A stretch of DNA of 25,604 nt from IMG/VR virus record IMGVR_UViG_3300036978_000053, positions 1-25,604 of that record; one strand, written 5' to 3'. Below the pieces are notes generated by a model, which was not told where the DNA came from, ran no database searches, and saw nothing but the letters and a program-made list of their open reading frames with translations. Below are positions 6,564 through 18,669 of the stretch, piece by piece (positions within the stretch are counted from its first letter, which is position 1; each line of letters opens with the position of its first letter). This DNA is from a virus. The position numbers and the translations under genes were made by a program.

Positions 6564-7520
6564 ATGGAAGTAAAAGTATCGCCAGATGAACGCATTACAA
6601 TGAACGCATTGGACAATTTTGATCCATTTGCGCGTAATGGCGTTCCTACGCAACCTCTAAATCAACCCAAAGTTGCAAAAAAGCCCGGACGCAAGCCAAA
6701 AGAGGAGGTAACTACCGAAAAAGAGCATCGTAATGTTGATATTGGCACACAGAACGAGACAAAACCTCTGGAAACCATCGAAAATGCAGTTCCAGAACCT
6801 AAAATTGAGGAGGAACTACACAAATCATTGCCACTACAGCAACCAATTGTAGAGTCCAGAACTTCTGAAGGGTTGCCAAGCTACAGAACAGAGTTTTCTG
6901 GTCGAGATATTTTTGTTGGATTCTCCGCTGGATCACCGACGAATGCAATTTCGGCATTTTCGCTTGTAAATATGGCACTTGATTTTGGTCGAGACAAAAT
7001 CCGCTTTGATTTTTCTATCAGCGATGGAAATTTCTACCATTCCCGCAACGAGCTTGCTAAAAAGTTCCTTGAGACGGACGCTAAATGGCTTTTGCTGCTC
7101 GCAAATGACATTATCCCTTCAGTTGGTCGTCCAGCATGGGCAAAAGCTACTGTAGGGGCAGCGAGAGGCTTGCAAGACCTGCCTCTGCAACGTCATGTCA
7201 TCCATCGTTTGATTGGAAGCGGGAAAACACTTGTTGGAGGCGCGTATTTTGAAAATGCTGATGCCTCTTCAATTGCTTGTTCAGACAAAAACCTTGGAAC
7301 TAAGGCAAAATCATATCCCGATGAAATCGTCCCTGTAGATTGGGTTGGTTCTGGATGTATGCTGATCCATCGTCGCGTATTTACTGACATTGGCGAGCGT
7401 CAAGGAGGATTTTTCTATCCAGATGACATTTCGTTCTGCAAACGCGCAAAAGATGCAGGTCATCAACCGCACATTGACCTTGGAATTCCAGTATTCCATG
7501 TCGGGTATAAATCTTACTGA
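6564..7520 (+). CDS. GT-A-type (family 2-like) glycosyltransferase with disordered N-terminus
   Basis: This 318-residue protein has two parts. Residues 1-105 are low-complexity and rich in Pro, Lys and Glu, and include KPGRKPKEE. Residues 112-318 look like a GT-A fold sugar transferase: FVGFSAGSPTNAISAFSLVN, then WLLLLANDIIP (174-184), then VDWVGSGCMLIHRRVF (258-273), then DISFCKRAKDAGH (288-300) and a terminal FHVGY. Acid-x-D sugar-nucleotide sites normally follow the hydrophobic strand. Here the triplet is Ala-Asn-Asp (180-182), so only one canonical Asp remains. Phage enzymes of this kind modify DNA bases, virion proteins or host surface sugars; the substrate cannot be read from sequence. 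It lies next to a second transferase-like gene. Confidence 0.7.
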   Translation: MEVKVSPDERITMNALDNFDPFARNGVPTQPLNQPKVAKKPGRKPKEEVTTEKEHRNVDIGTQNETKPLETIENAVPEPKIEEELHKSLPLQQPIVESRTSEGLPSYRTEFSGRDIFVGFSAGSPTNAISAFSLVNMALDFGRDKIRFDFSISDGNFYHSRNELAKKFLETDAKWLLLLANDIIPSVGRPAWAKATVGAARGLQDLPLQRHVIHRLIGSGKTLVGGAYFENADASSIACSDKNLGTKAKSYPDEIVPVDWVGSGCMLIHRRVFTDIGERQGGFFYPDDISFCKRAKDAGHQPHIDLGIPVFHVGYKSY

Positions 7521-7550
7521 TAAAACCAAAATTTACCATTTCGGGTATAA
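7501..7550 (+). repeat. Short direct repeat TCGGGTATAA around the gene junction
   Basis: TCGGGTATAA occurs at 7501-7510, inside the end of the upstream gene, and at 7541-7550, directly in front of the next start codon. Both are preceded by CCATG or CCATT. The second copy creates TATAAT overlapping the ATG. It may be a small duplication that created the junction. No regulatory role is demonstrated. Confidence 0.5.
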
Positions 7551-8125
7551 TGAAACCTAAAATCTACTCATATTACGAAAGCATCCAGACGTTACCACAA
7601 GAGGAGCAATTTGCTCGCGCCAACTGGTGGAAGACATCGTGGGAGAAAAATGGATGGGAATGCGTGATGCTTAATCGCTCGCACGCTACAGCAAGTCACA
7701 TGAATCAAAAATTCATGGCGAAGCTGATGAAGATGACATTTGATTTGCCAATGGACTATCAGCATATCTTCCCAAATATTACCGCTCGCTATTCTCGTTG
7801 GTCTGCCTTGCACGCAGCGGGAGGTGGGTGGATGAGCGATTACGATGTCTTCAACATTGACTTCACTCCACGCGATGCGGTCAAATTTGAATCTACTCTC
7901 AACATCGTTTCTGGGAAACCATGTTACTTGTTTTTTGCAACACGGGAACATTGCGCTGCTGTCATCAACAAATTTATTCAAGAGGATTTTTTTGTTGACA
8001 ACAAGCTCCGCTTTGAATCCGAAATCCTCGGAGTCGAAAGCAAATTGTCGGATATGTTGAATCAAGTTCGACACATTGAAAAAAGTGATAAGCCAAAGTC
8101 TGAAGTGATGGCATCACTCATGTAA
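7550..8125 (+). CDS. DXD-motif glycosyltransferase-like protein (GT32/sugar-binding type)
   Basis: This 191-residue protein has an N-terminal strand-like opening (KPKIYSYYES) and a clear DXD region. It reads ARYSRWSALHAAGGGWMSDY followed by Asp-Val-Phe, so the motif is Asp97-Tyr98-Asp99 behind the Arg80...Gly91-Gly92-Gly93 context. That arrangement (R-x-x-x-L-x-x-x-G-G-x-Y/W-x-D-x-D) is characteristic of small sugar transferases that use nucleotide sugars with a metal ion. The catalytic sequence looks intact here, unlike the neighbour upstream. The length is short for a full enzyme but matches the core domain. The gene ends just before a hairpin (8161-8197) and may be the last gene of its transcript. 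The acceptor is unknown; virion proteins are one possibility. Confidence 0.7.
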   Translation: MKPKIYSYYESIQTLPQEEQFARANWWKTSWEKNGWECVMLNRSHATASHMNQKFMAKLMKMTFDLPMDYQHIFPNITARYSRWSALHAAGGGWMSDYDVFNIDFTPRDAVKFESTLNIVSGKPCYLFFATREHCAAVINKFIQEDFFVDNKLRFESEILGVESKLSDMLNQVRHIEKSDKPKSEVMASLM

Positions 8126-10250: not shown

Positions 10251-13184
10251 ATGCCACAAAAAGTAATTTGGACATCTGCGCCTCAATCGTGCGCTCCTAA
10301 TCCTTGTCTGTTGCCGGGGCAACAATACGACTGCAATTATCCTAACATTGGAGCTACTGGCGCAAGTGGCCCAACAGGTGCTACAGGCGCAACTGGTGTA
10401 GTTGGCTCACAGGGTTCTACGGGAGCAACAGGATTCGGTGCAACAGGAGCAACTGGAACACAGGGCGCAACTGGAAATCGTGGAGCCACAGGAAGCACGG
10501 GAGCAACTGGATTTGGAGCAACTGGAGCAACGGGAAGTCAAGGCGCAACTGGAAGTCTTGGAGCAACGGGATCAACTGGTGCAACTGGCTTGCAAGGGGC
10601 AAGCGGCATAACTCCAGTAATTACACGGCAAAGCCTTACATCGTTTCCAATTTCACTTGGAACTAAAACATTTTTTTATGCGCCTGCAACAGTAGGTTGG
10701 ACATACGGATCAAGGGTTCGTGCGGTTGCTAATTCTGCATATCCTTTTGATTGGATGGAAGGAAATGTTATTGCCGTTGCAAGCAATTTTGTAACAATTT
10801 ACATTGATAAAACTCAAGGTGCAGGAACATATTCTGATTGGCAAATTGCATTGTCTGGAGATGGTGGCATTGGTGCTACAGGTCTAACTGGAAGCACAGG
10901 CGCAACTGGTATTGGCGCAACTGGATTGACAGGAACTACTGGAGCTACAGGTGCTACTGGCCCCCAAGGCGCAAGTGGCATCAATACAATTTACGACGAG
11001 AACAATCCTATTCCACCACTTGTTCCAGTTGAAGGACAACGATGGGTTGATACTGATACTCTGATTGAATACCAATGGTATGACAATACATGGGTTGAGG
11101 TTAATGCTCCAAGAGAAGGGGCGACAGGAGCAACTGGCGCACCCGGATATGTTGGTAGCGATGGCGCGACAGGTGCAACTGGATTAACAGGAGCGACTGG
11201 GCCGAGTGGTGGGCCAACGGGTGCTACTGGAGCAACTGGAAGTGGAGCCACTGGCGCAACTGGAGTTGAAGGTTCTACAGGAGCAACGGGTGTAGCTGGT
11301 AACGATGGAGCCACTGGAGCAACTGGTATTGCTGGTGTTGATGGAGCGACAGGGGCAACAGGCATTCAAGGTGATGCTGGTGCTACTGGAGCTACGGGTG
11401 CTACTGGAATATCTGGTTCAGATGGGGCTACAGGAAGCACAGGTGCAACAGGATTGAATGGAAATGATGGAGCGACTGGAGCCACAGGTCTTACTGGCTC
11501 ACAAGGTAGCACAGGGGCTACAGGTATAGCAGGAATTGATGGTTCTACTGGCGCAACTGGTGTTGCTGGTGGACAAGGTTCTACAGGAGCTACTGGTGCA
11601 ACTGGTGTAAGCGGAACTGATGGTGCAACAGGCGCGACTGGATTGAGCGGAACTGATGGTGCAACTGGAAGCACTGGAGCTACTGGAGTTGCTGGCACTG
11701 ACGGAGCGACTGGTGCTACAGGCCCGCAAGGCGCAACTGGTTTGACTGGTGCTGGTGGAGCTTCTGGATATTGGGGTTCATTCTGGTCAACTCAACAACA
11801 GAATGCTATTGCACCTAATACAGAATACGCAATCACATACAATAACACTGATCCAGATAGTGTTGGCGTTTCAATTTCAAATAGTAGCCGAGTCAACTTT
11901 GCATTCACAGGAGTTTATTCCGTTACATTTAGCGTTCAATGGTCGAATGCTGCCGTCCAAATACATGATGCAAATATTTGGCTCAAGAAAAACGGAGTAA
12001 ATGTTGCTGATACGGATTCTCGTTGGTCAGTTGTTGAAAAACATGGCGGCACAAATGGTCGATCTGTCGGAACAGTAAACTATGTTCTGAAGGTTCTTGC
12101 TGGAGAATATTTAGAATTGTTCTGGCAAACTACTGATATTAACATTTCATTGGAATATCTCGGCGCAATTCCTCCTGCTCCTGCAATCCCATCTATCATC
12201 TTGACTGCAACTCAAGTCATGTATGGTCAACTTGGCGCGACTGGTGCTACAGGAGTTACAGGATCGACGGGAGCCACAGGAATTCAAGGAAGCACAGGTG
12301 CGACGGGTATTGGGGCTACAGGTGCTACAGGAATTACATTATCTCCGCAAATTGATATTTATACTCTTTCTGATGTTTGGACAAAACCAGCAGGAGCAAA
12401 GCAAGTTGTAGTCGAATGCGTTGCTGGTGGTGGAGGTGGCGGATATGGCGGCAAAGGCGCGGCAGGAACTGCTTTGTATGGTGGTGCTGGTGGAGGCGCA
12501 GGAGGATATAGTCGAGTTTCTATTGACGCATCTCAACTTACTGAAGCAAGTTATACTGTAACTGTTGGAATCGGTGGGACTGGTGGAATTGGAGCAACTT
12601 TGACTAATGCTACGCTCGGAACATTTACTCGTTTTATAGGGGCAGTTCAAGGGCAATTAGCAGGAGCAAATGCTGGAGGAATTTTAGCAGGAAATGGCGG
12701 GACTAACGCACCAACAGCAGGAAGTGGTGGTGCGCCTACACCAAACTCTGGAGGCATACCGAACATAACAGGAACTGGTGGAACAGGAACGGGTTCTGGA
12801 TTTGCACCCACATCTGGCGGTGCTGGAGGCGGACTATCAGCAGCAGCAACTGTTGGATCAGCAACTGGTTTGTTTAGCGGAGGTTCTGGAGGGAATAATG
12901 CTCTTGTTCAGCTTTCAAGCGGTGGTGGCGCAGCGCGAACAAATGCTGATGGAAATTCTGCAACATCAACTGCTGCCAGAACATTATCATCGCTCGTAAT
13001 CAATGGCTGCGGTGGTGGAGGTGGAGGAGCTTGCTCGTTCGCAACGGGTTCTGGAGGCAATGGAGCAAATGGAACTGGCTATGGTTCTGGTGGTGGTGGA
13101 GGAGGTTCAACTATTGGTTCTGGTGAAAGAAGCAATGGCGGCAATGGTGCGCCCGGAGTCTGCGTGATAACAACTTATTTTTAA
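10251..13184 (+). CDS. Collagen-like fibre protein with Gly-rich C-terminal domain
   Basis: This 977-residue modular fibre protein starts with a short Cys-containing segment (Cys14, 19, 28). Collagen-like Gly-x-y repeats, mostly Gly-Ala-Thr, occupy about 33-119, 205-243, 289-503 and 661-695. Between them lie globular inserts at 120-204, 244-288 ([20 protein letters not shown]) and 504-660. The 504-660 insert has a jelly-roll, C1q/TNF-head-like pattern. The final part (696-977) opens with [20 protein letters not shown] followed by long Gly runs, as in Gly-rich domains of phage tail fibres. Such proteins form trimeric fibres that bind the host. The Thr in the y position could carry sugars. The gene lies between the capsid hairpin and the lysis genes, with no Shine-Dalgarno. 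Confidence 0.85.
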
Positions 13185-13186
13185 TT

Positions 13187-13354
13187 ATGGAAATTGACGA
13201 CTGGCTTATTGTTAATTCAGAAACAAACGAGATCGAAATGGGCATCCGTTGGGATGGTAAAACTAAATGGCCTTTGCCAGAAGGAACATATGCCGTAAAA
13301 CGAAACGAAGCAGACTTTTCAAAGATTAAATACAAAGAACAAGAAGAAGAATAA
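13187..13354 (+). CDS. Small acidic protein (55 aa)
   Basis: This 55-residue protein fills the space between the fibre gene and the holin-like gene. It starts MEIDDWLIVNSETNEIEMG and continues with RWDGKTKWPLPEGTYAVKR, ending in an acidic EQEEE tail. The stop overlaps the next start (TAATG at 13352-13356), a sign of coupling with the lysis genes. No membrane segment or motif is visible. The Trp/Pro-rich middle looks like a small beta domain. It may be a lysis regulator or a short tail-associated protein. Confidence 0.7.
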   Translation: MEIDDWLIVNSETNEIEMGIRWDGKTKWPLPEGTYAVKRNEADFSKIKYKEQEEE

Positions 13355-13536
13355 TGGACACACACTCACTTAACGCAGGAATGGCAGGAGTATTGGCTAC
13401 AGCAACATCAGTTGGTATTTCGCTACTGCCAGAAATTGAAGCATGGTTGCGAATCGCCTCGCTTCTTGTTGGTATCGCAGTAGGTATCGGATCACTTATC
13501 GTTCTTGCTAAAAATTGGAGCAAAAATAAGTCTTGA
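13354..13536 (+). CDS. Holin-like small membrane protein (60 aa)
   Basis: This 60-residue protein has two hydrophobic stretches, about residues 9-27 and 33-53 (ASLLVGIAVGIGSLIVLAKN), and a basic end (NWSKNKS). Size, two membrane helices, a short charged C-terminus and position just before a lipoprotein and an endolysin fit a class II-type holin. Holins form lesions in the inner membrane and time lysis. Its start overlaps the previous stop, and its stop overlaps the next start (TGATG at 13534-13538). A second holin-like gene follows, so one of the two could be an antiholin. The family assignment is by features only. Confidence 0.65.
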   Translation: MDTHSLNAGMAGVLATATSVGISLLPEIEAWLRIASLLVGIAVGIGSLIVLAKNWSKNKS

Positions 13537-13739
13537 TGACATATAAATTTACATTAATGTTGCTTGTATGCCTTGCGCTCACAAGTTGCGTTTCTGTTCC
13601 AATTCCTCCAGTTGGCGACAAGATGGGGCAATACGGGAAAGTTCAAATTTCAGTCAATGTAAAGTATCTCCCACCAGAACAACAAATAGATTGGTTCAAC
13701 CCAATCATACCACAACCTAAACTATATAAAGATAAATGA
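13536..13739 (+). CDS. Small lipoprotein, candidate outer-membrane spanin
   Basis: This 67-residue protein has a clear lipoprotein signal: a basic start (MTYK), a hydrophobic core (FTLMLLVCLA) and the lipobox Leu15-Thr16-Ser17-Cys18. The mature part is about 50 residues and Pro-rich (VSVPIPPVGDK, then YLPPEQQ and NPIIPQP). Size, lipid anchor, proline content and position between holin-like genes match outer-membrane spanins, which work in the last step of lysis in Gram-negative hosts. No inner-membrane spanin partner was identified unless one of the small membrane proteins serves. I chose ATG 13536 over the upstream TTG 13533 because it gives a TGATG overlap. Confidence 0.65.
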   Translation: MTYKFTLMLLVCLALTSCVSVPIPPVGDKMGQYGKVQISVNVKYLPPEQQIDWFNPIIPQPKLYKDK

Positions 13740-13914: not shown

Positions 13915-15474
13915 ATGCTTCACAAACTTATCGCCATCGCTTCAGCAGAAGTTGGCGTGAGGGAAGAAGGCGGGAATAATCGTGGAGAACGAATCCGCGA
14001 GTATCAATCCGCGACAGATTTAAACCCCGGAGCTTGGCCTTGGTGTGCCGCTTATGTGGATTGGTGTATTCGTGAATGGCTATCAATCCCACAAGTTGTA
14101 ATTTGGCTTAATCTTCAACGCAGGACTCCAGAAGAATGGCGACCCAAGACGGCACTTGCGTATGGACTAAAATCTTGGGCATTACAGCGTCCAAGCACCA
14201 CTAAAGTATATAATGATACCAATAAAGCTCAACTTGGTGACATCGTAACATTTGACTTCTCTCATGTTGGATTTGTCATTGAAGATACAGGCAAGGAAAT
14301 TGTGACTTTGGAAGGAAACGCGCTTCCATTGACATCAAAAGTTTTGACTCCACATGGATTCAAATTGATGAAAGACATTAAAGTTGGAGACAATGTGATT
14401 GATCCAGATGGAGAAGAATCATTTGTAACTGGGGTTTTCCCACAAGGATCAAGAGATTTGTATAAAATAAAACTTCAAGATAAATCAGAAGCAATTTCAT
14501 GCGATCAACATTTATGGAAAATACAAATTGATGGAAGAAAAGATAAAGTATTAAACACTATTGATCTTAAAAAAAGAGTTAATTCAAAAGCACTACGATC
14601 AAGAATACCTCAAATACAACCAGTAAATTTTTCATTCAATGATAATCTTCCAATCGAGCCATATTTGATGGGGTTACTTATTGGTAAGGGTGGAATGTCA
14701 TCGGATTATCTTGGATTCACAAATATAGATGATGAAATAATTGATCATGTAAAAAACAATCTTGTATCTGGTCATATTTTAAAACCTCATATTGAAAACA
14801 AAAATACAGTTAGAGGTAATTACAGGATTATTTCTGAATCAAAATGCAAAAATGAAATGATTCGTATTTTGAAAGAATTAAACCTCCAAGGTAAAAAATC
14901 TTTTGAAAAGTTTATACCGGAAATATACAAAAATTCATCAATCGAAAACAGGTTGAGCTTGCTTCAGGGATTAATGGATTCAGATGGTAGTGTTGATAAA
15001 ATTGGGAGATGTGATTTCTCATCTTCATCAAAACAATTGAGCGAAGATGTTATGGATTTAATTCGATCTCTCGGCGGTAGGTGCGCGTTGAATGTAAAAA
15101 CAAATATATTTTACACATCACCAAATCAAAAAACACCAAAACAAGCCAGAGATTGTTATAGGCTTCAAAACATAAATATGCCATTCTTCAATCCATTTAG
15201 ACTGAAAAGGAAGAAAGAGAGATTTAAGTTTAGAAACGCAGCTTGGGCAAGAAGGATTGTTTCTGTTGAGCCATGTGGAACTGGAGAAGTTCAGTGTATT
15301 TCTGTATCCGCAAAATCGAATCTTTTTATTACTGACAACTACATTCCAACGCACAATACCAATGGTAAGGGCGAAAGAGACTCAACAAGCGGAGATGGAG
15401 TCTGGAAAAAAATTAGAAAGAAATCTCTTGTAAAAGATTTGATTCGCATTCATCCAAGTATCGCATCGATATAA
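13915..15474 (+). CDS. Endolysin (CHAP/NlpC-like peptidase) interrupted by an intein
   Basis: The 519-residue precursor consists of an N-extein (1-135), an intein (136-481) and a C-extein (482-519), which would splice to 173 residues. The exteins form a Cys/His peptidase of the kind used as phage lysins: Cys44 in WPWCAAYVDWC, His117 in SHVGFV, and the EGN motif at 133-135. Spliced, the junction reads EGN-TNGKGERDSTSGDGVW, the normal continuation in this family. It presumably cleaves peptidoglycan peptides during lysis. It directly follows two holin-like genes and a lipoprotein. The precursor should be inactive until spliced, because the break falls at a conserved active-site motif. The start is ATG 13915; no Shine-Dalgarno is visible. 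Confidence 0.85.
   Translation: MLHKLIAIASAEVGVREEGGNNRGERIREYQSATDLNPGAWPWCAAYVDWCIREWLSIPQVVIWLNLQRRTPEEWRPKTALAYGLKSWALQRPSTTKVYNDTNKAQLGDIVTFDFSHVGFVIEDTGKEIVTLEGNALPLTSKVLTPHGFKLMKDIKVGDNVIDPDGEESFVTGVFPQGSRDLYKIKLQDKSEAISCDQHLWKIQIDGRKDKVLNTIDLKKRVNSKALRSRIPQIQPVNFSFNDNLPIEPYLMGLLIGKGGMSSDYLGFTNIDDEIIDHVKNNLVSGHILKPHIENKNTVRGNYRIISESKCKNEMIRILKELNLQGKKSFEKFIPEIYKNSSIENRLSLLQGLMDSDGSVDKIGRCDFSSSSKQLSEDVMDLIRSLGGRCALNVKTNIFYTSPNQKTPKQARDCYRLQNINMPFFNPFRLKRKKERFKFRNAAWARRIVSVEPCGTGEVQCISVSAKSNLFITDNYIPTHNTNGKGERDSTSGDGVWKKIRKKSLVKDLIRIHPSIASI
14320..15357 (+). mobile_element. Intein with LAGLIDADG endonuclease domain (346 aa)
   Basis: Block A starts ALPLTSKVLTPHGFKLMKDI followed by KVGDNV, with Ala as residue 1. 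Block B reads SCDQHLW, with His199 and Trp201. The endonuclease part has LMGLLIGKGG (251-260) and LQGLMDSDG (350-358). Block F reads VQCISV, with Cys461, and the end is FITDNYIPTHN, closing with His480-Asn481. The first C-extein residue is Thr482. Ala1 with Trp at B:12 and Cys at F:4 resembles class 3 inteins; the usual Thr at F:5 is Ile here. In the first LAGLIDADG motif the catalytic Asp is Lys258, so the endonuclease may be inactive. The stretch is markedly more A+T-rich than its flanks, consistent with separate origin. Confidence 0.88.
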
Positions 15475-15480
15475 ATAAAT

Positions 15481-16245
15481 ATGGCTAATATTGCACACAG
15501 ATGGAAAAAAGTGTTAGCAGTTTCATGCACTCATGCAAAATACTGCGACAAGGAAGCGTGGAAAGCAGTAATGGCATTTAAAGAAAAATACAAGCCAGAC
15601 ACAATCCTTCATCTCGGCGACTTTATTGATATGTCTGCGCTAATGGGGAATGGTGCTGGTTCTGGAAGTGATGGAGATGAGATAACTCCAGATATTGATA
15701 CTGGATTAATGCACTTGCGAGAACTGATGGCTGGATGCAAAGACCCATACATCCTTTGTGGCAACCATGAAGATCGTGCTTGGAAGCTAACAAATAGCAA
15801 AAATGCTGTTACATCATATTGCGCTCACAAGATTATTTCCGCGATTGAAGATACATCAAAAAAACTTAAAGCAAGATTGATTCCGTATTCTGGAATTGAA
15901 CAAATTGTTGATATAGCAGACATGGGATTTACTCATGGAACTTGTTATGGAGAATCTGCGGCAAGAGACATGGCAGAGCAATATTGTGATAGAAGCAGGC
16001 GCAAAATAATTATGGGGCATACTCATCGTGTAGCCATTCAAAATGCCAGAACATATCATGGTGGAACTTGCTATAATATTGGAACTCTTACTGCTCGCGG
16101 AGCATTAGAATATGCAAAAAATCGCAGAAGCACATTCAGTTGGTGTCAAGGATGGTTGTGGGGAGAGTATTGCGAGTCATTGCATCAATCATCACTTCAA
16201 ATCACGCAACGCTCAAAAGGAGATGTGTGGAGACTTCCAATATGA
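15481..16245 (+). CDS. Metallophosphoesterase-like protein
   Basis: This 254-residue protein has the calcineurin-type phosphoesterase series: first motif VSCTHA (Cys16-Thr17-His18), LHLGDFID (Asp47), CGNHEDR (Asn95, His96), FTHG (His152) and MGHTHR (His180, His182). The family hydrolyses phosphate esters with a two-metal centre. The first motif is normally Asp-x-His, and here Cys replaces Asp, which would alter one metal site. The remaining ligands are intact. The protein is Cys-rich for its size. It starts six bases after the endolysin stop on the leader ATAAATAAAT and overlaps the next gene by ATGA. Possible roles are nucleotide or nucleic-acid processing; nothing in the sequence selects one. 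Confidence 0.85.
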   Translation: MANIAHRWKKVLAVSCTHAKYCDKEAWKAVMAFKEKYKPDTILHLGDFIDMSALMGNGAGSGSDGDEITPDIDTGLMHLRELMAGCKDPYILCGNHEDRAWKLTNSKNAVTSYCAHKIISAIEDTSKKLKARLIPYSGIEQIVDIADMGFTHGTCYGESAARDMAEQYCDRSRRKIIMGHTHRVAIQNARTYHGGTCYNIGTLTARGALEYAKNRRSTFSWCQGWLWGEYCESLHQSSLQITQRSKGDVWRLPI

Positions 16246-16791: not shown

Positions 16792-18669
16792 ATGCCAATC
16801 ACTTTTCCTATACCTACATTTATTGGAGAAACTTTTTTTGCTGGAGGAAAAGGTTGGCAATGGAATGGGTTTGCATGGGATTCAATTGCTAATACCGCTG
16901 CGGTTGGCGCAACAGGCCCAGTTGGAGCTACAGGCCCAACTGGAGCAACTGGAGTTCAAGGTTTGACTGGTTCCACTGGAGCAACAGGTTTGCAAGGGTC
17001 AACTGGAATAGGTTCTACAGGCGCAACAGGATTACAAGGATTAATTGGAGCTACTGGCCCACAAGGAGTCCAAGGAATTCAAGGTATCCAAGGCGATGCT
17101 GGCGCGACTGGCTCTACTGGACTTACAGGTGGACAAGGATCAACTGGTGCTACAGGACTCCAAGGCATTCAAGGCGGCACGGGAGCTACAGGAGTTGCTG
17201 GATTAGATGGTTCAACGGGCGCGACGGGCGTTACAGGTGTTCAAGGCGCAACTGGAGCTACAGGAGCGACGGGATTAACAGGCGGGCAAGGTTCTACTGG
17301 ATTACAAGGAAGCACTGGTGCTACTGGAGTTCAAGGAATTCAAGGCAATCAAGGCTCCACTGGCGCAACTGGCGTGATTGGAGGACAAGGAAGCACTGGA
17401 GCTACTGGTATTACTGGTTCTCAAGGCGCAACTGGAACTACAGGTGCAACTGGCGTTACAGGAGATGTTGGAGCAACTGGACTTACTGGAGCAACTGGAT
17501 TAGGAGCTACAGGTGCAACTGGTTTAACTGGAGCAACTGGAGCGGCTGGACAATCTTCATCTTTCTACAATTACAAAGCTGATGCAGTTACATTATCTGG
17601 AGTTCCAACAGTTCAAACATTGTATTGGAATAACGCAACGCAGACATCCTCTACGATTGTAACGCTTTCTCACATTGATGCGCTCGGAAACGACATTGAT
17701 GTTTTCTTCCCTTTATTCAAAACAAACGATACATTTATTATCCAAGATCAAGGAAACTCAAACAACTTTCAAACTTGGAGGATTACAGCTACTCCTACTG
17801 TTGTTCTTAATAGTTATATCTCAATTCCAGTAACACTTGTTACTTCTGGAGGAACATCTCAATTTGCAAACAACCAGCAACTTATTTTTGCAATTGTTAC
17901 TTCTGGTCTTACTGGAGCTACTGGAATTCAAGGCAGCACGGGGGCAACTGGTGTTGCGGGAGGACAAGGAGCGACTGGAGCAACTGGAGTAACTGGAGGA
18001 CAGGGATCAACAGGTTCTACAGGCGCAACTGGCATACAAGGTATTCAAGGTATACAAGGGTCAACTGGAGCTACAGGAGTTCAAGGAATTCAAGGAGCAA
18101 CTGGATCGACTGGCGTTCAAGGTGTTCAAGGCATACAGGGCATCCAAGGAGCTACAGGTTCTACAGGTTTGACTGGTCTTCAAGGGTCTACAGGTGCTAC
18201 AGGAACTCAAGGCATTCAAGGTATACAAGGCAGCACGGGGGCGATTGGTGTTCAAGGTGTCCAAGGTATTCAAGGATCAACTGGTTCTACGGGTGCAACA
18301 GGATTAACAGGTGGGCAAGGTTCTACTGGGGCTACTGGAATTGGGTCAACAGGTGCCACTGGAGTTCAAGGTGTGCAGGGTATTCAAGGCATACAAGGTT
18401 CTACTGGAGCCACTGGTGCAGGAACTCAAGGTTCAACAGGAGCTACTGGAGTTGGAAATCAAGGAGCGACTGGAGCGACTGGCCCTGCTGGGAGTGGTGG
18501 AGGAGCAACTGGAGCGGGAACAGATGCAATTTTCTTTTTGAATGGACAAACAGTAAATACTTCTTACACAATTCCAGTATCACGAAATGCTGGTAGTTTC
18601 GGCCCGATAACAATTGCATCTGGAGCTGCTGTTACAGTTCCAACTGGTGGAGTTTGGACAGTTGTGTAA
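16792..18669 (+). CDS. Collagen-like fibre protein 2 (625 aa)
   Basis: This 625-residue fibre protein opens with a short Trp-rich unit ([20 protein letters not shown], residues 12-31), a type seen at the start of phage fibre proteins. Collagen-like repeats run from about 39 to 252 and 372 to 575. They mix Gly-Ala-Thr with Gly-Ile-Gln and Gly-Ser-Thr triplets. A beta-rich insert occupies about 253-371 ([15 protein letters not shown] onward). The last 47 residues (579-625, from [10 protein letters not shown] to GGVWTVV) form a module shared with the next gene. The Gly-x-y register is kept except at short Gly-x-Gly breaks. It likely forms a trimeric host-binding or decorating fibre. Confidence 0.85.

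Follow-up and report, generated by a model that had tools for sequence, protein, structure and literature searches.

The window analysed here comes from an uncultured virus and is a fragment of 25.6 kb. Its positions 13915-15474 on the forward strand form one open frame of 519 amino acids with no internal stop, in which a CHAP endolysin is split by a 346-residue insert. The features of the locus, all on the forward strand, are as follows (a slash marks a splice junction or the corresponding empty site).

13354-13536, forward: holin-like protein, 60 aa, two hydrophobic stretches (sequence only; position kept in relatives)
13536-13739, forward: small lipoprotein, 67 aa, LTSC lipobox (likewise read from the letters; position kept in relatives)
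13915-15474, forward: precursor ORF, CHAP endolysin split by an intein, 519 aa plus stop (translation, Pfam)
13915-14319, forward: N-extein, CHAP domain with Cys44, His117, Glu133 and Asn135 (Pfam, 43 homologues, fold)
14320-15357, forward: predicted class 3 intein, Ala1 to Asn346 (Pfam, PDB, relatives, fold)
14515-14517, forward: Trp66 (B:12) of the class 3 triplet, in CDQHLW (invariant)
14665-14691, forward: LAGLIDADG motif 1, LMGLLIGKG, with Lys123 (AAG, 14686-14688) at the catalytic acidic position (relatives)
14962-14988, forward: LAGLIDADG motif 2, LQGLMDSDG, catalytic Asp222 intact (Pfam, relatives)
15295-15297, forward: Cys326 (F:4), predicted initiating nucleophile (invariant where covered; class 3 definition in PMC5222942)
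15349-15360, forward: Thr344-His345-Asn346/Thr+1, G-block and C-terminal splice junction (relatives)
15358-15471, forward: C-extein, 38 aa, TNGKGERDSTSGDGVW..., last two strands of the CHAP sheet (homologues, model of an intein-free homologue)
15481-16245, forward: metallophosphoesterase directly 3' of the lysin (phrog_221, 2.3e-18; kept beside the lysin in relatives)

Residues 1-135 make up the N-extein, which ends in IVTLEGN, and residues 136-481 the insert (ALPLTSK...YIPTHN), which starts with ALPLTSKVLTPHG and ends with ITDNYIPTHN. The C-extein comprises residues 482-519 (TNGKGERDSTSGDGVWKKIRKKSLVKDLIRIHPSIASI). When the flanks are joined, a protein of 173 aa is obtained that reads EGN/TNGKGERDSTSGDGVW. 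The Pfam CHAP model (PF05257) covers residues 40-135, and its last model position is the Asn of EGN, while the insert matches LAGLIDADG_3 and Hom_end, both above the model cut-offs. In PHROGs, the N-extein matched endolysin families, and the insert matched terminase, primase and helicase-loader families that contain inteins. The two parts also differ in base composition (32% GC in the insert vs 45% in the N-extein). The original prediction had placed a 346-residue intein exactly after EGN, and translation together with the homologues confirms this position to the residue.

The holin-like and 67-aa lipoprotein genes have no family match in PHROGs. From its sequence the lipoprotein is possibly an outer-membrane spanin, and the presence of the holin-like gene and a lipoprotein gene with an LTSC lipobox upstream of the lysin suggests a Gram-negative host. 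The same order of genes, with the metallophosphoesterase downstream, is seen in relatives with (L087, L083) and without (L003, L029) the intein. Two long proteins with collagen-like GATGATG repeats (10251-13184 and 16792-18669) flank the lysis cassette; they are probably fibre or decoration proteins, and their copies and positions vary among relatives. Elsewhere in the window (6564-8125), two glycosyltransferase-like genes, recognised by eye, lie between scaffold-like and capsid-like genes, and the first of them has a weak match to a PHROG of function unknown.

The host protein and its active site

The natural intein-free homologue L001 was modelled with a pLDDT of 89. Its five best PDB folds in Foldseek are all CHAP endolysins (LysGH15, LysIME-EF1, Ly7917 and PlyGRCS twice), with modest E-values of 5e-4 to 5e-3 and query-normalised TM-scores of 0.36-0.55. 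The CHAP identity in the PDB came through this fold search, after a sequence search with the lysin profile had given chance matches, with ribosomal eL22 at the top and PlyCA at an E-value of 0.96. No close relatives of the N-extein were found in cultured phages at the threshold used.

Five residues, Cys44, His117, Glu133, Gly134 and Asn135, do not vary among 43 homologues. In LysK, a triad of Cys54, His117 and Glu134 has been proposed, with Asn136 lining the groove, and the spacing of EGN equals that of LysK Glu134-x-Asn136 (PMC4126393). Mapped by motif, spacing and fold, EGN is read here as supplying the Glu and Asn of the active site. LysK and LysGH15 share the Cys-His-Glu-x-Asn order and the CHAP fold with the window lysin, whereas they are larger, multi-domain staphylococcal enzymes free of inteins and the window lysin is a single domain of 173 aa, probably directed at a Gram-negative host. 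In the L001 model, EGN/T closes a beta-strand ahead of a loop, and two further strands lie in the C-extein. On this model, the unspliced precursor is probably inactive.

The host protein could also be a different CHAP hydrolase, such as a virion-associated one, since tail-associated hydrolases also bear CHAP domains, virion genes flank the cassette on both sides and bacterial genomes contain homologues of about 50% identity, some with neighbours that do not resemble phage genes. This is unlikely, however, given that the protein is small, single-domain and without a tail domain, that its gene lies directly behind the holin-like and small lipoprotein genes in an order kept in related phages, and that its best matches are PHROG endolysin families and CHAP endolysin folds. 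The intein reading would be unchanged in either case. The bacterial relatives are found in Variovorax, Acidovorax and Janthinobacterium genomes (L138:8001-8507, L136:8001-8504, L144:8001-8504). The neighbours of the L138 copy are not phage-like in appearance, and some of the copies in bacterial genomes may be domesticated hydrolases.

Intein class, splicing residues and endonuclease

By sequence, the insert has its best PDB matches among inteins, namely 6riz (1.4e-10), 6qaz and the DnaB inteins 6bs8, 6rix and 6riy. The list is headed by gp41-1 inteins, of which 6riz is, by its entry title, a C1A/F65W/D107C variant, and the alignment with 6bs8 pairs the Trp, Cys and THN positions with those of the window intein. 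Structure prediction of the precursor had been proposed as a check along with the original prediction. The resulting AlphaFold model (pLDDT 81, pTM 0.66, 38-row alignment) finds the PI-SceI, TliVMA and PhoVMA inteins and class 3 mini-inteins as its fold matches.

Position 1 carries no nucleophile, being Ala1 in all lysin-type copies. The Trp-Cys-Thr triplet is formed by W66 (B:12), C326 (F:4) and T344 (G:5) and is invariant in relatives where covered, while the B-block H64, the penultimate H345, the terminal N346 and Thr+1 are shared by every lysin intein and relative in the comparison. These class 3 marks match the descriptions in PMC5222942 and PMC6195587. On these residues, the assignment of the insert as a class 3 intein is well supported, with splicing itself predicted. 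Cys326 would attack the Asn135-Ala1 bond, the N-extein would be handed to Thr+1, Asn346 would cyclise and the 173-aa lysin would be released from the 519-aa precursor. Residue -1 is Asn in the lysin and Lys in the P-loop relatives, which counts against this explanation. Cys61 of the B-block was considered as a special redox partner of the lysin inteins, and this idea was dropped because the residue does not vary among the relatives compared.

Between blocks B and F lies the endonuclease domain (LAGLIDADG_3, Hom_end), the fold of which matches PI-SceI and I-DmoI. The acidic position of motif 1 is Asp (GAT) in L081, Glu in L083, L084 and L085, and Asp, with one Asn, in the remaining relatives compared. 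The acids of both motifs are intact in L081, L083, L084 and L085, whereas the window copy has Lys123 in place of that of motif 1, a change seen in one contig. In LAGLIDADG chemistry, the motif acids are needed for normal double-strand cuts. Because a lysine sits at the catalytic position of motif 1, no such cuts would be expected from the window copy, and its homing has probably been lost. Decay of the endonuclease once an element has become fixed is an accepted stage in the life of homing elements, and Lys123 fits this course. The change lowers the case for an active homing copy and leaves the case for an intein standing.

Empty sites, horizontal movement and origin

Of 80 IMG/VR loci retrieved with the N-extein, 79 run uninterrupted through EGN/T as proteins of 168-181 aa, and L026 is the one with the insert. 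L001, the N-flank of which is 96% identical, is intein-free and has EGN/TNGKGERDSTSGDGVW joined exactly at the predicted junction, so that removal of the insert does yield the normal 173-aa lysin that had been predicted. An ordinary domain of the lysin, named beforehand as the finding that would speak against an intein, is ruled out by these close homologues, which cleanly lack the insert. The empty-junction pattern EGN/TNGxGxRD occurs in at least 120 stretches. By comparison, the allele-blind pattern HN/TNGxGxRD was found in four records, all of the known intein family, and the N-terminal junction pattern in five. The site is thus conserved and rarely occupied. Every occupied site that was found holds the same intein family, and the allele-blind pattern revealed no other intein type at the EGN/T junction. 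One intein-free lysin (L029:5001-5519) has N-extein DNA 96.5% identical to that of the window and C-extein DNA 78.9% identical, with changed sequence just 3' of the intein site, EGNTGQKGLRDSETGDGV. This altered site could be a homing-resistant site or a conversion scar.

Five further IMG/VR records, representing about four phages, share the intein at the same codon junction; the carriers are L081 and L082 (identical intein DNA), L083, L084 and L085 (cut off). Between the window and L081, DNA identity is 95.4% in the intein, 65.4% in the N-extein and 70.3% in the C-extein, and dS is 0.163 in the intein and saturated beyond correction in the N-extein. Comparison of the intein with its flanks therefore indicates that it moved between lysins far later than the lysins diverged, and by these figures the intein is moving horizontally between diverged phages. 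Its dN of 0.020 against a dS of 0.163 points to purifying selection, as expected if the intein must splice. No second intein that could act as donor was found in the same phages (12 records, several of them fragments).

These data also bear on the alternative of a dead intein or of an ordinary domain retained in the lysin. One endonuclease catalytic residue is changed in the window copy, but the splicing residues are all intact and under purifying selection, and a retained domain is opposed by relatives that lack the insert exactly at the junction, which makes this reading extremely unlikely. We favour, with a probability of roughly 0.93, a precursor in which a mobile class 3 LAGLIDADG intein occupies the EGN/T active-site motif, splices out and persists as a selfish element.

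Another 45 inteins, more remotely related and with 23-38% identity in the best segment, came from a profile scan. Those examined lie mostly in P-loop ATPases at a Walker A GK/T or GK/S junction, and in a separate group the host looks like a ribonucleotide reductase gene; these host names were read by us from the flanks. Insertion at the P-loop Lys-Thr has been called a classic intein site (PMC5050341). Maximum-likelihood analysis places the lysin inteins as a single clade (100/100) inside the GK/T clade (100/99), without a defined sister group. The class 3 inteins of P-loop ATPases (phage SNF2/DEAD-type helicases, TerL, mycobacterial DnaB-1) resemble the lysin intein in Ala1, the WCT triplet, the THN/T or THN/S end, a LAGLIDADG domain in the large forms and insertion after Gly-x at GGNAAN/AC. 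They differ in their site, which is the Walker A GK/T as opposed to EGN/T of a peptidoglycan hydrolase, and have at most about 41% identity to the lysin intein among those compared. A related class 3 intein was also seen in a ClpX-type-looking phage ATPase gene, an uncommon host, at GPTGCGK/T (L091:6001-7089).

All 23 junctions listed read GGNAAN/AC, where GGNAAR/AC encodes Gly-Lys/Thr and GGNAAY/AC encodes Gly-Asn/Thr. Because the GN/T and GK/T sites share this core, a jump from an ATPase to the lysin is suggested, and on the junction DNA we take it that a P-loop gene was the source of one such jump. Each of the 79 intein-free lysins has exactly one GGNAAN/ACN among a mean of 23 Ser/Thr/Cys junctions, so that the argument from the target core has a modest statistical weight of about 1 junction in 23. 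What splicing requires at this position may also play a part in the shared core.

Lysis timing and the range of intein hosts

The original prediction held that splicing would gate an otherwise toxic lysin and could time host lysis. The intein in a lysis-type enzyme at EGN is upheld by the present analysis, and the timing role is not. Where an endolysin has no secretion signal, the inner membrane normally keeps it from the wall until it is opened by the holin. As a selected timing or sensing device, the intein would delay lysis by slow or conditional splicing, for instance through redox control of Cys326. The insertion follows the Glu/Asn motif and leaves a precursor that is probably inactive, and oxidation reversibly inhibits another class 3 intein, Msm DnaBi1 (PMC6195587). 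Nevertheless, most relatives have the lysin in the same neighbourhood and lack the intein, the intein moves alone between diverged lysins, the holin already delays canonical endolysins and no regulation-specific feature was found in any relative. Such a device is very unlikely, and a post-translational lysis clock set by rate-limiting or conditional splicing is likewise quite improbable. Since the intein spreads between distantly related phages, it is better described as a mobile parasite than as a proven lysis timer. A selfish element that is tolerated because it splices out is the best-supported explanation, for which a regulatory role is unnecessary.

Group I introns are known from phage lysin genes, for example in staphylococcal and streptococcal phages. 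They are also mobile splicing elements, removed at the RNA level, whereas removal here would be at the protein level. Known phage inteins were expected to lie mostly in terminases and helicases, which fits the related inteins found in our searches. In the portions of the literature covered, no intein was found in an endolysin, lysin, lysozyme or peptidoglycan hydrolase, and none of 224 mycobacteriophage endolysins contains one (PMC3314691). Among 591 cultured-phage records of related inteins, the best 20 and a spread of 60 include no lysin annotation, and no relative of the window intein above 37% identity was found in cultured phages. Mycobacteriophage TerL inteins are likewise phage-borne, at active sites, partly class 3, sporadic and horizontally moving (PMC5050341). 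Their hosts, in contrast, are terminases, and that survey makes no mention of a lysin intein. The present intein is regarded as a new class 3 member in an unusual host gene and site, and priority is not claimed. The original prediction did not include the class 3 mechanism, horizontal transfer, the link to P-loop sites or the damage in one endonuclease motif.

An intein in a lysin would add the lysis module to a host range made up of DNA-handling ATPases, polymerases and nucleotide reductases. The pair of sites would also provide a model for how an intein colonises new genes, as the GK/T and GN/T cores differ by the third base of one codon (AAR vs AAY). Because the unspliced lysin should not lyse, the window lysin with its intein could be used to report class 3 splicing directly.
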